This document shows positions 15,636 to 29,855 of a stretch of 39,678 bases of DNA, piece after piece (the stretch's first letter is position 1; every line of letters starts with the position of its first letter). Under the pieces are notes generated by a model, which was given only the letters and a program-made list of their open reading frames with translations, did not search any database and was not told the origin of the DNA. The stretch spans positions 5,131,036-5,170,713 of the forward strand of contig NZ_KI913949.1 in assembly GCF_000332095.2 (NCBI RefSeq), given 5' to 3'. Origin of the DNA: Leptolyngbya sp. PCC 6406. GTDB lineage: Bacteria > Cyanobacteriota > Cyanobacteriia > Phormidesmidales > Phormidesmidaceae. The position numbers were made by a program, and so were the translations under genes.

Positions 15636-17789
15636 CTAACGCCCTGGCAAAAGGGCGATGGGATTAACCGTTCCCTGATTAGGAATGTGGACCTCAAAGT
15701 GCAGGTGGGGTCCGGTGCTGAAGCCCGTGCTGCCCATTTCCGCAATTTGTTGCCCTTGGCGGACCTGTTGACCCGCTTGTACCAAGTTACGGCTGTGGTG
15801 GGCATAGCGGGTGAGGCTACCGTCAGGATGGCGAATATCCACCATGTTGCCATAGCCCCCGGAGTTCCAGCCCGAGGTGACGACAACACCAGTAGCCGCA
15901 GCCACAATGGGGGTGCCGACCGGACCAGCAATATCAATGCCTCGGTGCATCCGACCCCAGCGCCAGCCATAACCAGACGATAGGACGCCCTGGGCAGGCC
16001 AGATATAGCCATTAAATCGGTTAGGGGCCTCAGGCAGGTACTCACTGGAGTCTGGCAGGATGGGCATACTGGGGGATACCACCCGGCCCGTAGGGCTCTC
16101 TGTCAGAGGAGCGTAGACCTCAGAGCCTAGGGGGGCAGCAGCTAAAAGCTCCCGCTCCGGTAGGGTGACAGGCTGCTCAGATTGCAGCCCATTCTCATTG
16201 GGACGAAACTCAGGATTGACGGGGATAGGAGCAGTATTGACTGTCGCCCGCTCTACACTCTGGGGACTGGAGGCCGCGACTTGGAACGGAACCTCGGTGG
16301 CAAACTCGCTAGAGGTTGGGTTAGCACCCCCAGAGCTTGTGACTTGGGTGGAACTTGCAGCGGCTTCTTCTGCCTCTTCACGGGCAGTTTGGACCCGTGC
16401 CAGCAGATTGGCCACATAGGGATCAGCTGCCACTGAGTCAGACGGGATGGCTTCTTCTACCCCGTCAAGGGCTAACTCGGGTGCTGCCTGGACTGGGAGA
16501 GCAACTTCAGGTGTGACCAAGTCCGCTGCGTTGGCTTCATCGCCCTCATCCCTGGTTCGAGTGGCCTCAGGGGCTACCGGGGCTTGGGGACGATTGGCAC
16601 GGGGCAGGCGGAAGGGCTCTAGGGAAGCCAGTTCAATGGGGGCTGGGACTAACGGCTCGGGGGCGGTAGCTTGGGGAGCCGATTGGGGAATCACCAGTGT
16701 CCTGCCGACAAAAATTCGGTTGGGGTTGCTGATGCTATTGGCTCGCGCCAATTCGGTGGTGGAAATGCCGTACTGACGGGCAATGGTTGAGAGGGTCTCA
16801 CCTCGGCGGATCTGATGGCGAACGGGGGCGGCGACAACGGGGGTCTCTATTCGGCCCACGGCAACCTGTTGAGCACCGGTGTTCGTAGATTCGGTTGGCG
16901 AAGACGCTGCGGCGGCTTCCCCAGATGTTTCAACTGCGATGGTCAGAGACTGGTCCCCAGGGGCCATCGCGGTAGTATCGGCACGATCAGCCTCGACCTC
17001 TCGCGGGACTGAAGCCAGCTCACCCACCAGAGCACTGACATCGGTAGAAGCATCTCCAGTAGTCAGGGGTGTAGGTTCTTTCGGAGACTCCATCTCAGAC
17101 TTACGCTCTGAGGTGGTCAAAGCAGCCAGACTCTGCTGGACCGTCAAGGGAACTTCAGAAGCGGCTTTAACAGGCGTAGCATCGCTGGACTGGGAAAGGG
17201 AGGATGCCTGCGGTATTGAAGCCTGTGGCATTGAAGAGAGTTGCGATCTGGGAGCGGCAGCCACGGCTACGGGGGCGGGGCTATTGCTCATCCCAGGCAC
17301 CTTAATGACTTGTCCTGCTTGAATGACAGGCTCGTCTCCAATGCCGTTAGCTTGCTTGATATCCTCGACGTTAACCCGATGGAATTTGGCGATGTCCCAG
17401 AGGGTCTCTCCGGGGGCAACTGTGTGATAAAAGGCACTGCCGCCACTAGGACGATCTGAACCCACGGAGGGTAAGGTTGGCGACGCGCCTACGGTGGGTA
17501 GTGCGGCCAATACCGTAGCATCAGCGGCTACGGCTTCCCCACTTGGGGCTAAAAATGTGCCTGTGGTGCCTACCGACAGCGCCAGACCCAGCATTGCTGC
17601 CGAGGTTCGGGTTCCACGGCTACATCCTGCGGACTTCTGCCCGGAGGGCTGCTGCTCAGGTAAACCCCGAGACGCAGATTCGTTATGGACAGATTCCCGA
17701 GAAATTGCAGGTTTCAAAGGAACTTCCTCCCTGTGACCAGCGTTTAACTGCATCTTAAGCATCGGAGCAAGTCGCTTCAGAAGGTTCAT
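15636..17789 (-). CDS. LysM-domain M23 metallopeptidase, NlpD-like
   Basis: A 717-residue envelope protein. Residues about 65-88 are a hydrophobic export signal set unusually far inside. Two LysM peptidoglycan-binding domains follow at about 112-157 (HTVAPGETLWDIAKFH) and 322-366 (HQIRRGETLSTIARQYG), separated by long Ala/Ser/Glu/Pro-rich linkers. The C-terminus, about 600-717, is an M23 peptidase with H615 and D619 (HRGIDIA) and H697 (HLHFEV) as zinc ligands, so it should be active. It probably cleaves or remodels peptidoglycan during division. ATG 17789 has GGAG about 9 bases upstream. The gene is followed by the terminator at 15562-15590. Confidence 0.95.
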   Translation of the reverse strand: MNLLKRLAPMLKMQLNAGHREEVPLKPAISRESVHNESASRGLPEQQPSGQKSAGCSRGTRTSAAMLGLALSVGTTGTFLAPSGEAVAADATVLAALPTVGASPTLPSVGSDRPSGGSAFYHTVAPGETLWDIAKFHRVNVEDIKQANGIGDEPVIQAGQVIKVPGMSNSPAPVAVAAAPRSQLSSMPQASIPQASSLSQSSDATPVKAASEVPLTVQQSLAALTTSERKSEMESPKEPTPLTTGDASTDVSALVGELASVPREVEADRADTTAMAPGDQSLTIAVETSGEAAAASSPTESTNTGAQQVAVGRIETPVVAAPVRHQIRRGETLSTIARQYGISTTELARANSISNPNRIFVGRTLVIPQSAPQATAPEPLVPAPIELASLEPFRLPRANRPQAPVAPEATRTRDEGDEANAADLVTPEVALPVQAAPELALDGVEEAIPSDSVAADPYVANLLARVQTAREEAEEAAASSTQVTSSGGANPTSSEFATEVPFQVAASSPQSVERATVNTAPIPVNPEFRPNENGLQSEQPVTLPERELLAAAPLGSEVYAPLTESPTGRVVSPSMPILPDSSEYLPEAPNRFNGYIWPAQGVLSSGYGWRWGRMHRGIDIAGPVGTPIVAAATGVVVTSGWNSGGYGNMVDIRHPDGSLTRYAHHSRNLVQAGQQVRQGQQIAEMGSTGFSTGPHLHFEVHIPNQGTVNPIALLPGR

Positions 17790-26442: not shown

Positions 26443-28089
26443 ATGTTTCAGCGCTCTATTCCCTTGCCTGTTTCAACTTCCCTGGCCGGCATGATGCCGG
26501 GATGGGTAGATATTTTGGAGGCGATCGCCGATCCGGTCTTTGTGCAAGACCGATCTCAGCGGTGGGTGTATGCCAATCCAGCTTGTGCCCAACTTCTGAC
26601 CCGGTCTCCCGAATCCCTGGAGGGGGTGACCCATGGGGATGTATTTGGAGCCAGTAATCACAAGGATTTACTGCGGACAGAGGCGCAGGTCTGGGCCACG
26701 GGCAAGACCCTAGAGCAAGAAATCACGCTTCAGGATAGCCAGGGCCACCCCCTCACTCTTTCAGTCAAGGTTTCCCGATTAGAGCAGGGAGAACAGGGGA
26801 CATTTTTGGTCGCTATTCTGCGAGATATCACTCACCGTACCCGCCAATTGGTGCAGGCCCTAGAGTTTGAGGCCACTTTGAAGCGGATCACCGATCGGGT
26901 GCGAGACAGTCTGGATGAAACCCAAATTCTACAAACAGCGGTGGAGGAATTGACGGGAGCCCTGGAGGCAAAGGGGTCGAATACGGCTCTCTATGACTTG
27001 GAGCAGGGGACTTCTACTATCTACTACGAGTACAACGCTTCCCTGCCCTCCTATCAAGGACGGGTGGCCCAGATGGAGGCGTTCCCGGAGGTCTATCACC
27101 AATTGCTGGCGGGGCAGTACTTTCAGTTCTGCTCGCGGGAGCCCAACCCGGTGCGGGGCCATGTCTCGATGCTGGCCTGCCCGATTTTGGACGATCGCGG
27201 TGTACTGGGAGACCTGTGGCTGATCAATGGCAGCGAGTATGGCTTCAATGATCAGGAAATTCGCTTGGTGCAGCAGGTGGCGAATCAATGTGCGATCGCA
27301 ATTCGTCAGGCCCGCCTGTATCAAGCAGCCCAGTCTCAGGTGAAGGAACTGGAGCGGCTGAACCAGCTCAAGGACGACTTCCTCAGCACTGTCTCCCATG
27401 AACTGCGGACCCCCGTCACCAGTATGCGGGTGGCGCTGCAATTGCTGGGGGTAACCCTGAGTCAAGAGTTTGACCTAGCGGCGGAGTTGAAAAAGCCCAA
27501 GACCAGTCAAAACCGCATGACCCGCTACTATCAGGTGCTCAAGGAGGAGTGTGAGCGGGAAATCAGCCTGATCAACGATCTGCTGGATCTCCAACGCATC
27601 GATGGGGGCAACCATCCCATCTATCCCCAGCGCATTGATGTCACCACCTGGCTACCGGGACTCATCAACAGTTTTCAGGAACGCGCCCAAAGCCGTCAGC
27701 AGATGCTCCAATACACAGTGGCGGCGGACGTGCCCCTGTTGATCAGCGATCAGCCCAGCCTGGAGCGGGTGTTTGCGGAGTTGCTGAACAATGCCTGCAA
27801 GTACACGCCACCAGGGGCCACTATCCACCTCTCGGTATCTGCGATCGCGGGAGACCAAATCTGCTTTCAGGTGGTGAATAGCGGGGTAGAGATTCCCGCG
27901 ACGGAACTCCCCCGGATTTTTGACAAGTTTTATCGGGTACCCAGTGCGGACCCCTGGAAGCAGGGGGGCACGGGATTGGGGCTAGCCCTGGTACAAAAGC
28001 TGTTGTGGCATCTGGGGGGCGAAGTGTCTGCCACCAGCGGCGATCAGCACACTTGCTTTACGGTGACTCTGCCGGTACAGATGTCCTGA
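26443..28089 (+). CDS. Hybrid PAS-GAF sensor histidine kinase
   Basis: A soluble 548-residue two-component kinase. A PAS domain lies at about 18-130 (ILEAIADPVFVQDRSQRWVYANPA) and a GAF domain at about 145-295. The dimerisation/phosphoacceptor domain has H319 (FLSTVSHELRTP), and the ATPase domain carries the N box (ELLNNACKYTPPG) and the GTGLGLAL motif. The G1 box, usually DxGxG, reads NSGVE, so its aspartate is replaced by asparagine. No membrane segments are present, so it senses a cytosolic signal. No response regulator gene is adjacent; it is an orphan kinase. Confidence 0.93.
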   Translation: MFQRSIPLPVSTSLAGMMPGWVDILEAIADPVFVQDRSQRWVYANPACAQLLTRSPESLEGVTHGDVFGASNHKDLLRTEAQVWATGKTLEQEITLQDSQGHPLTLSVKVSRLEQGEQGTFLVAILRDITHRTRQLVQALEFEATLKRITDRVRDSLDETQILQTAVEELTGALEAKGSNTALYDLEQGTSTIYYEYNASLPSYQGRVAQMEAFPEVYHQLLAGQYFQFCSREPNPVRGHVSMLACPILDDRGVLGDLWLINGSEYGFNDQEIRLVQQVANQCAIAIRQARLYQAAQSQVKELERLNQLKDDFLSTVSHELRTPVTSMRVALQLLGVTLSQEFDLAAELKKPKTSQNRMTRYYQVLKEECEREISLINDLLDLQRIDGGNHPIYPQRIDVTTWLPGLINSFQERAQSRQQMLQYTVAADVPLLISDQPSLERVFAELLNNACKYTPPGATIHLSVSAIAGDQICFQVVNSGVEIPATELPRIFDKFYRVPSADPWKQGGTGLGLALVQKLLWHLGGEVSATSGDQHTCFTVTLPVQMS

Positions 28090-28111: not shown

Positions 28112-28288
28112 TTATGGGCTAACTGCCAGCGTTACAACACCAAATGCCAAAATCACCGTGCCGGCGACCCTATTTAACCACTCCATGGTTGTGGGCGTAA
28201 TCCGAGCCCGGAAAAGATTAATAGTCATACTGAGTAGGCACCACCATAGCGCCGAACCCAGGAAAACGCCCAGGACAAGCACTCCAAA
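28112..28288 (-). pseudogene. 3' remnant of a LysE/RhtB-type amino-acid exporter gene
   Basis: The last 58 codons read like the C-terminal end of a LysE-family translocator. There is FLGSALWWCLLS, then a short basic stretch, then a last helix LNRVAGTVILAFGVVTL before a TAA stop. Normal members have about 205 residues and five or six helices; everything before this point is missing and is replaced by GT-rich and hairpin repeat DNA. It is therefore a truncated, probably dead gene. A regulator remnant lies just upstream on the same strand. Confidence 0.7.
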
Positions 28289-28548
28289 TGTAGCGGGGAG
28301 TGGGGGTGTTGGGGTGTTGGGGTGGATGGGTAGGGGCGCGGTTTCCGCGCCCAATGCAGGGAGTGGCAGATGAAAGGAATTTTGAGTTTTGAATTAAATA
28401 TTCCGTAGGGGCAATCCCTTGCTTGCCCTGTTCGCGCAGCGGCTCCGGAGGAGCAACAGAGCCGTTGGCGGAGCCGAAGGGTGGTTGCCCTTGTTGCCGG
28501 GTGACCCGTGATGGGGAGTGGGGGAGTGGGGGAGTTTTTGCCTTGGAT
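28289..28548. repeat. Repeat-rich DNA between two gene remnants
   Basis: Contains GT-rich tandem blocks (GGGTGTTGGGGTGTTGGGG), a perfect hairpin GGGCGCGG-TTT-CCGCGCCC (28334-28352), and a GGCTCCGGAGGAGC-type palindromic cluster near 28440. Such dispersed repeats are typical of cyanobacterial spacers and probably took part in removing the missing gene parts. Confidence 0.6.
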
Positions 28549-28713
28549 TTACACCGGAAGGGCGATGGTTTCTTTAATGCTGGAGAGGACGATAGTGGTG
28601 CGGGTGCGGTGGACGCCAGGGATTTGTTTAAGGCCGTGGGTAATTAGGGCTTCTAATCCTCGGGTGCCTTGGCAGCGGACTTTGAGCAGGTAGTCGTCGC
28701 TTCTCTGGGTACA
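28549..28713 (-). pseudogene. 3' remnant of an Lrp/AsnC-type regulator gene
   Basis: About 54 codons correspond to the C-terminal ligand-binding (RAM) domain of Lrp/AsnC regulators: DDYLLKVRC, then a helix with LKQIPGVHRTRTTIVLSS, then KETIALPV and a TAA stop. The DNA-binding domain and first half of the RAM domain are absent, and the sequence before residue C (28713) no longer resembles the family. A normal protein has about 150 residues. It lies upstream of the exporter remnant on the same strand, in the order expected for an lrp-lysE pair. Confidence 0.75.
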
Positions 28714-28775
28714 CTGTGCCCAGAGAGCCCCTATAGCACCATCGTTGGGGGCGGCAGCGGAGGGTAAAACGTGAG

Positions 28776-29855
28776 ATGAGTGCAATTGTCTATGGCCCTT
28801 ACCACGGCAAACGCCTGAGGGGTAGAACCGTGGCCCAGCTCTATGCCGAGGGCCAGCGCAATTTTGGTGGGGCGATTTTGCGGGGGGCCAACCTGCAAGG
28901 GCAAACGCTATCGCGGGCTGATTTTAGCGGGACCGATATTCGCGGCGCTAACTTTGAGCGGGCGATACTGCACAAAGCAGATTTCAGCCACACTAAGGGC
29001 GGTTTGCCACAGATCTGGGGAGGGCTAAAGCTGATCTTGGCCCTGGTGCTGACAGCAGCGATTGGGTTCATCACCACCGAGATCACGATTTCCATAGCTG
29101 GGGTCACCCTGGGCCAGTATGATCCCCAAACGGTGCTTGGGGTAATCGTCCTGGGCCTAGTTGTCATCATTCCTGTGGTGCTGATTTTAGCAGCGAATCT
29201 TTTGGTGCGTTTGGCTCTGTGGGTTGCGGGCGATAATGCTGGCAACCTGCTGATGGCAGCGGCTATCTCGTTCCCCATCGCCGTATTGATGGCGTTGATG
29301 CTGCTAGAGAATCGTTCAACGGCAATCTCGGTGATGGATGCCATTGGGAGCATAGACCGGGCGCTGGTCATATTTTTTATGGTTTGGCTGGTTGGCGCTG
29401 CGGCCATGGGCGTGGCTGATCCAAACGACAACGTCGCCGAGTTTGGCGATTGGCTTGGTAGCCTCTTGGTGATCTTGACTGGCCTAGGCGGCGTAATTCT
29501 GGGAGCAGAAGATTCGTTTCAGCTCTCCAAAGATAGAGTCGTTCCCCTTGAGATCGTGATGACGGTGACTGGGATCATGTTGGGCGTCATCCTATTTCTT
29601 TGCATCTATACCTATCGTTGGCTGGGCACAAGCACTCAACGGCCCAGCCAACTCCGAGACTGGGGTCTCAGGCTCACAACCCTGGGTGGCACCAGCTTTA
29701 GCGGGGCCGATTTGACTGGAGCCACCTTTGCCGGGGCCAGCCTCAAGCACACCCGGTTTATCTCGGCTCGGCAACCCACAATCTTAACCAATGTTTGCTG
29801 GCAAGATGTCAAGCATCGAGGTCGGGCCTGGTTTGCCCACTCCGACCAACCCTAG
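28776..29855 (+). CDS. Pentapeptide-repeat protein with central membrane domain
   Basis: The 359-residue protein starts with a pentapeptide block (about 28-72; GANLQGQTLSRADFSGTDIRGANF). It continues with about six hydrophobic helices (about 82-280) and returns to pentapeptides at about 300-335 (FSGADLTGATFAGASL). Family members I know of are usually longer at the C-terminus, and this one stops shortly after the second block (NVCWQDVKHRGRAW), so it may be truncated. The ATG has GGAGGG about 11 bases upstream. It begins close to, and opposite, the Lrp-type remnant. Function is unknown. Confidence 0.82.
   Translation: MSAIVYGPYHGKRLRGRTVAQLYAEGQRNFGGAILRGANLQGQTLSRADFSGTDIRGANFERAILHKADFSHTKGGLPQIWGGLKLILALVLTAAIGFITTEITISIAGVTLGQYDPQTVLGVIVLGLVVIIPVVLILAANLLVRLALWVAGDNAGNLLMAAAISFPIAVLMALMLLENRSTAISVMDAIGSIDRALVIFFMVWLVGAAAMGVADPNDNVAEFGDWLGSLLVILTGLGGVILGAEDSFQLSKDRVVPLEIVMTVTGIMLGVILFLCIYTYRWLGTSTQRPSQLRDWGLRLTTLGGTSFSGADLTGATFAGASLKHTRFISARQPTILTNVCWQDVKHRGRAWFAHSDQP

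Follow-up and report, generated by a model that had tools for sequence, protein, structure and literature searches.

In the 39,678-nucleotide stretch of the Leptolyngbya sp. PCC 6406 genome analysed here (the window), the 3' ends of two genes, one for a LysE-type exporter and one for an Lrp/AsnC regulator, are present side by side, and the 5' parts of both are missing. The reading favoured here, with moderate confidence, is that a second lrp-lysE pair was once located at this site and was broken by two separate 5' losses. The arrangement is real, exceeds what chance would produce and represents ordinary decay of a second copy; no new system is shown by it.

The LysE remnant is located on the minus strand at 28112..28294 and comprises residues 163-220, followed by two more residues and a TAA stop; residues 1-162 are lacking. 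Residues 23-75 of the open reading frame containing it (28112-28354, minus strand) matched positions 136-189 of 193 of the Pfam profile PF01810 (E 4.8e-6, 26.6 bits versus a cut-off of 25.6). Other Pfam matches of this frame, to Colicin_V (E 0.006) and YmiA-like (E 0.057), were below the cut-offs, and among the NCBIfam models TIGR00949 gave a weaker match far under its curated cut-off (E 7e-4). In tblastn searches the piece (window 28121-28294) aligned to residues 163-220 of a 222-residue protein of genome G003 with 72% identity and to residues 163-219 of a 222-residue protein of G010 with 70%. A complete LysE membrane domain is absent, as residues 163-220 of 222 are all that is found. The C-terminal 58 codons of a LysE-type exporter, which the first-pass annotation had claimed, are borne out by profile and alignment alike.

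The Lrp/AsnC remnant, also on the minus strand, occupies 28549..28701 and consists of residues 101-150 and the stop; with residues 1-100 the N-terminal DNA-binding domain is absent at the locus. Its open reading frame (28549-28785, minus strand) matched the profile of the ligand-binding domain, PF01037, with residues 30-68 (E 6.4e-9, 36 bits versus a cut-off of 25). Positions 34-72 of 73 are covered, half a domain, and positions 1-33 are missing; the NCBIfam model for Lrp was again matched more weakly and far under the curated cut-off (E 3e-5). According to tblastn, window 28552-28701 corresponds to residues 101-150 of the 151-residue Lrp of G010 (80% identity), followed by G032 (78%) and G003 from the same genus (65%). 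The family and the C-terminal end assigned previously hold, but the length has to be reduced from some 54 to about 50 codons. As had been described, lrp lies upstream of lysE on the same strand, and comparison with whole proteins by tblastn shows both stops kept and both 5' parts lacking. Similarity to LysE and Lrp/AsnC C-termini was found for the respective pieces, both of which pass the Pfam cut-offs. Judged by its sequence, the LysE piece is a remnant and not a working member of the exporter family. Most of the LysE membrane helices and the DNA-binding part of Lrp are presumably missing here, considering the known build of these families, and function as an exporter or a regulator is unlikely for either remnant.

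Matches to the Lrp piece were obtained in 32 and to the LysE piece in 41 of 58 relatives (33 and 42 of 59 with the own genome). Nineteen lysE loci, those returned out of the 41 relatives with a match, were examined. The lysE alignment starts within the first 14 residues in 17 of these, the exceptions being G013 and G023, and the G023 locus sits at a contig edge. A full lrp gene stands beside lysE in 13 of the 19 loci, a partial one in G017 and none in five, two of which (G012 and G023) are at contig edges. An M23 peptidase gene was contained within the fetched flank in 14 of the 19, and the five loci without it come from a single genus (g2). A gene that we take to be hemJ is divergent to lrp in G010 and in the five genomes of g2. 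Many relatives carry the order lrp-lysE-M23, and the window locus is not the usual locus of the family. The suggested comparison with close relatives yielded intact lrp-lysE pairs, but no whole pair at the site of the window.

At this site, the lysE remnant is arranged tail-to-tail with a PAS/GAF histidine kinase gene assigned by Pfam (26443..28089, plus strand), 22 bases separating the stops, and beside the lrp remnant a pentapeptide-repeat protein gene is located (28776..29855, plus strand; PF00805, E 3e-21). For the pentapeptide protein, a scan of named genomes gave seven distant matches, six in records under cyanobacterial names (Nostoc three times, Oscillatoria, Microcoleus and Aphanothece) and one in a Gracilibacteria bin. 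Matches to the histidine kinase at E <= 1e-60, including paralogues, were obtained in 36 of 39 genomes, the own one counted. Queries with lrp and lysE (E <= 1e-4) found no match in the histidine kinase loci of 11 relatives, nor in seven longer stretches, of which five come from sites included in the 11. The genes next to the kinase were viewed in six of the 11 loci and four of the seven longer stretches, G001, G002 and G013 being cut short or unclear. In G003, G010 and G023 the next gene specifies a membrane protein and is followed by a gene presumed to be dprA, and in G004 and G017 a different gene is found next to the kinase. The own copies of this membrane protein gene and of dprA are located at C1:1.137 Mb (membrane protein at L127 8705-9388), together with genes that we take to be petA and petC. 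Since the neighbour of the kinase in G003, G010 and G023 is found there, the 3' side of the kinase in the window looks rearranged. A whole pair at this site turned up in none of the relatives, so its former presence is inferred, as are the order and mechanism of the losses and their recent date.

A rearrangement could also have moved or copied a fragment to this place, consisting of lrp from codon 101 onward, the spacer and lysE, so that lrp was never whole here and the loss in lysE was the only deletion in place. This is rather unlikely, even if the displaced neighbour of the kinase is in its favour, as is the finding that neither hemJ nor an orthologous M23 gene stands beside the window pair (an M23 relative, 49%, is located at window 15648-16007). 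No donor copy with a matching breakpoint was found in the genome.

That the pair in the window was a second one is suggested by another locus. The own M23 peptidase gene is intact (L074 5696-6892, minus strand; L074 begins at C1:330000) and is adjoined just upstream by a separate lysE remnant (L074 6889-7175, C1 near 337 kb). This remnant retains residues 126-220, is interrupted by a frameshift and one TAA, and has no lrp; its stop and the M23 start form an ATGA overlap. The two lysE 3' ends are identical in 41 of 58 residues. Since the own M23 gene is accompanied by a lysE that was broken separately, lysE was once present twice in the genome, and the copy in the window is taken to be a second lrp-lysE pair acquired by duplication or transfer. 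In trees both lysE pieces are placed near G003, G010 and G013 with values of 0.19-0.88 at the relevant nodes; such trees of short pieces, poorly supported, cannot tell duplication from transfer.

When whole Lrp and LysE were searched against the 5.78 Mb genome (E <= 1), no 5' half of either gene was detected elsewhere. The remaining matches were, for Lrp, an Lrp-like protein at 25% (E 1.3e-4) and another at E 0.74, and for LysE, a LysE-like protein at 33% (E 0.002) and a stretch at 28% that contains seven stops (E 0.07). The genome consists of three contigs and is rated 99.96% complete, and the window, located at C1:5131036-5170713, is free of N. The stretch 28447..29717 has an exact second copy (1,271 of 1,271 bases) at C1:3701505-3702775 (L007 4506-5776). 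There it takes the place of the end of a CBS-domain gene, which continues in G010 and G037, and breaks off at a run of N. This copy is probably an assembly artefact at a gap edge, a true recent duplication being less likely, and it marks one place where the assembly deserves a check. Assembly in the vicinity of these repeats is thus not free of flaws, and one or both truncations could be misjoins, with the pair intact in the organism. The copy starts within the spacer, cuts the CBS-domain gene and ends at N, and the remnants show little decay, all of which would fit. Nevertheless, misjoins are improbable: a nearly complete genome does not contain the missing 5' parts anywhere, the window has no N, and other repeat copies align across 28446/28447 in the same way as the window.

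The spacer between lrp and lysE (28290..28548) is composed of dispersed repeats with tandem tracts, for which at least 104 matches were counted in the own genome, a lower bound as 40 of 327 candidates were scored. The presence of repeat DNA between the remnants, noticed at first pass, is thereby confirmed. The spacer includes octamer tracts at 28295-28330 and 28513-28535 and, at 28331-28353, the GTAG-tagged palindrome GTAGGGGCGCGGTTTCCGCGCCC, which was found exactly in 27 of 127 loci, many of them overlapping. For comparison, the spacers of 19 relatives, those whose Lrp loci were returned out of 32 with a match, were read by eye. They vary from 8 to 271 bases, with 97 bases or more in eight of the 19. 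A C-rich tract directly before lysE was seen in six (G010, G032, G004, G017, G016 and G024) and a palindrome of similar build in three (G017, G032 and G004); no obvious C-rich tract precedes lysE in the other 13, among them G028 with a spacer of 169 bases. In the window, a C-rich tract of the same kind closes the spacer and abuts LysE codon 163, the repeat tract meeting the break at 28290-28295. From this position and the similar tracts in relatives, it is probable that the spacer already contained the repeats and that lysE was cut at the spacer edge; the repeat DNA has the appearance of an ordinary lrp-lysE spacer.

At the lrp break (28701), the matches listed included no repeat except for the exact copy (40 of 161 candidates scored). 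Repeats at the deletion ends, for which a check had been proposed, are therefore found at the lysE break, but among the matches listed none is found at the lrp break. Exactly at the latter is an inverted repeat (28702..28726); the RNA of 28701-28728, plus strand, folds into a hairpin (-18.6 kcal/mol) with a 12-bp stem and a 3-nt loop. The matches listed (40 of 161 candidates scored) contained no copy of it other than the exact 1,271-base one. A boundary of a mobile element was considered at this point; a hairpin without further copies among the matches listed is weak evidence against it, and no insertion end is claimed.

These data also bear on the other possibility raised by the first-pass annotation, repeat-mediated replacement; here, a REP-like repeat would have been inserted or recombined and thereby replaced the 5' DNA of lysE. 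The end of the repeat tract and the lysE break are no more than about 5 bases apart, and GTAG-tagged palindromes are proposed to be miniature transposons in one account (PMC3733652). Replacement by repeats is nevertheless very unlikely, since similar tracts occupy the same place in some relatives with a whole lysE, and no repeat is found at the lrp break among the matches listed. Of the earlier reading, two 5' losses from an lrp-lysE pair are supported. The repeat-mediated variant is not, as the repeats fill the spacer and the spacers of six of the 19 relatives have a similar C-rich tract at their lysE end.

Differences at codon positions 1:2:3 in lysE amount to 16:7:31 between window and G003 and 16:9:31 between window and G010, compared to 15:7:33 between G003 and G010. 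For lrp, the values are 8:6:23 (window versus G010), 9:7:26 (window versus G032) and 8:5:24 (G010 versus G032). Since the remnants differ from whole genes as whole genes differ among each other, little neutral decay appears to have occurred since the break, and from this pattern the remnants look as if selection had acted on them during almost the entire divergence. Recent losses are far likelier than frames that are still constrained; in a simple base-composition model, the chance of one given frame staying open over this length is about 11-15%. Continued production and use of the short frames, as a short ligand-binding or membrane peptide, can practically be dismissed, because the pieces lack almost half of the ligand-binding profile and 162 of the 222 residues of LysE and because chance accounts for an open frame at the rate just given and recent loss for the codon pattern equally well, even though both frames are open and coding-like in codon pattern.

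According to the favoured reading, that of two separate 5' losses, the site would first have carried a second, relocated or duplicated lrp-lysE pair. One deletion, whose upstream edge lies at the C-rich end of the spacer, would have taken lysE up to codon 162. A further deletion, or the end of a rearrangement, would have removed everything upstream of lrp codon 101, leaving over the lrp 3' end, the spacer and the lysE 3' end.

Truncations of this kind are not restricted to the window. Besides the own M23 locus (residues 126-220), lysE is truncated in G002 (L070 4404-4571, residues 168-218) and in G013 (L068 6339-6860, residues 47-219, no lrp), and in G017 only residues 106-149 of lrp are left (L071 8143-8274). 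A truncation inherited together with that of the G017 lrp was considered, but the pieces are only 58-66% identical and were treated as independent. The lysE-M23 junction was compared in 16 loci (14 of relatives, G002 and the own genome), M23 starts being chosen by their nearness to the lysE stop. Stop and start overlap as ATGA in G003, G013, G010, G007 and the own genome, and an in-frame start follows 1-10 bases past the lysE stop in G012, G019, G023, G016, G020, G009, G058 (GTG) and G002. The distance is about 30 bases in G030 and G026, and G040 gives an unclear picture; these three loci argue against a tight coupling in all cases. It may be suggested, quite tentatively, that loss of the pair recurs in the family, always from the 5' side, and that the M23-linked lysE 3' end is kept as the translation start region of M23, a plain possible reason being the overlap of the lysE stop with the M23 start. 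If true, the tail of a dead exporter survives as the leader of a cell-wall gene. The window illustrates clearly how an operon decays, with neighbouring genes possibly determining which of its ends is retained, and it calls for caution in annotation, as fragments of lysE or Lrp in this family may turn out to be remnants. A literature search of limited terms and scope found no account of lrp-lysE decay in cyanobacteria.

Compared with known arrangements, the window pair resembles the lrp-lysE-M23 cluster of G010, G003 and others in having the same two genes in the same order and on the same strand, and the retained pieces show 65-80% protein identity to the clusters of G003 and G010. It differs in that both genes are 5'-truncated and no M23 gene is directly downstream. 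The own M23-linked remnant is like the window in retaining only a lysE 3' end, lrp being gone; the piece is longer, contains the frameshift and TAA, and has its stop overlapping the M23 start. The spacer resembles the GTAG-tagged REP palindromes of PMC3733652 in general build, in that GTAG stands beside a palindrome that has many copies dispersed in the genome. Cyanobacteria are named among the hosts of such repeats in the same account.
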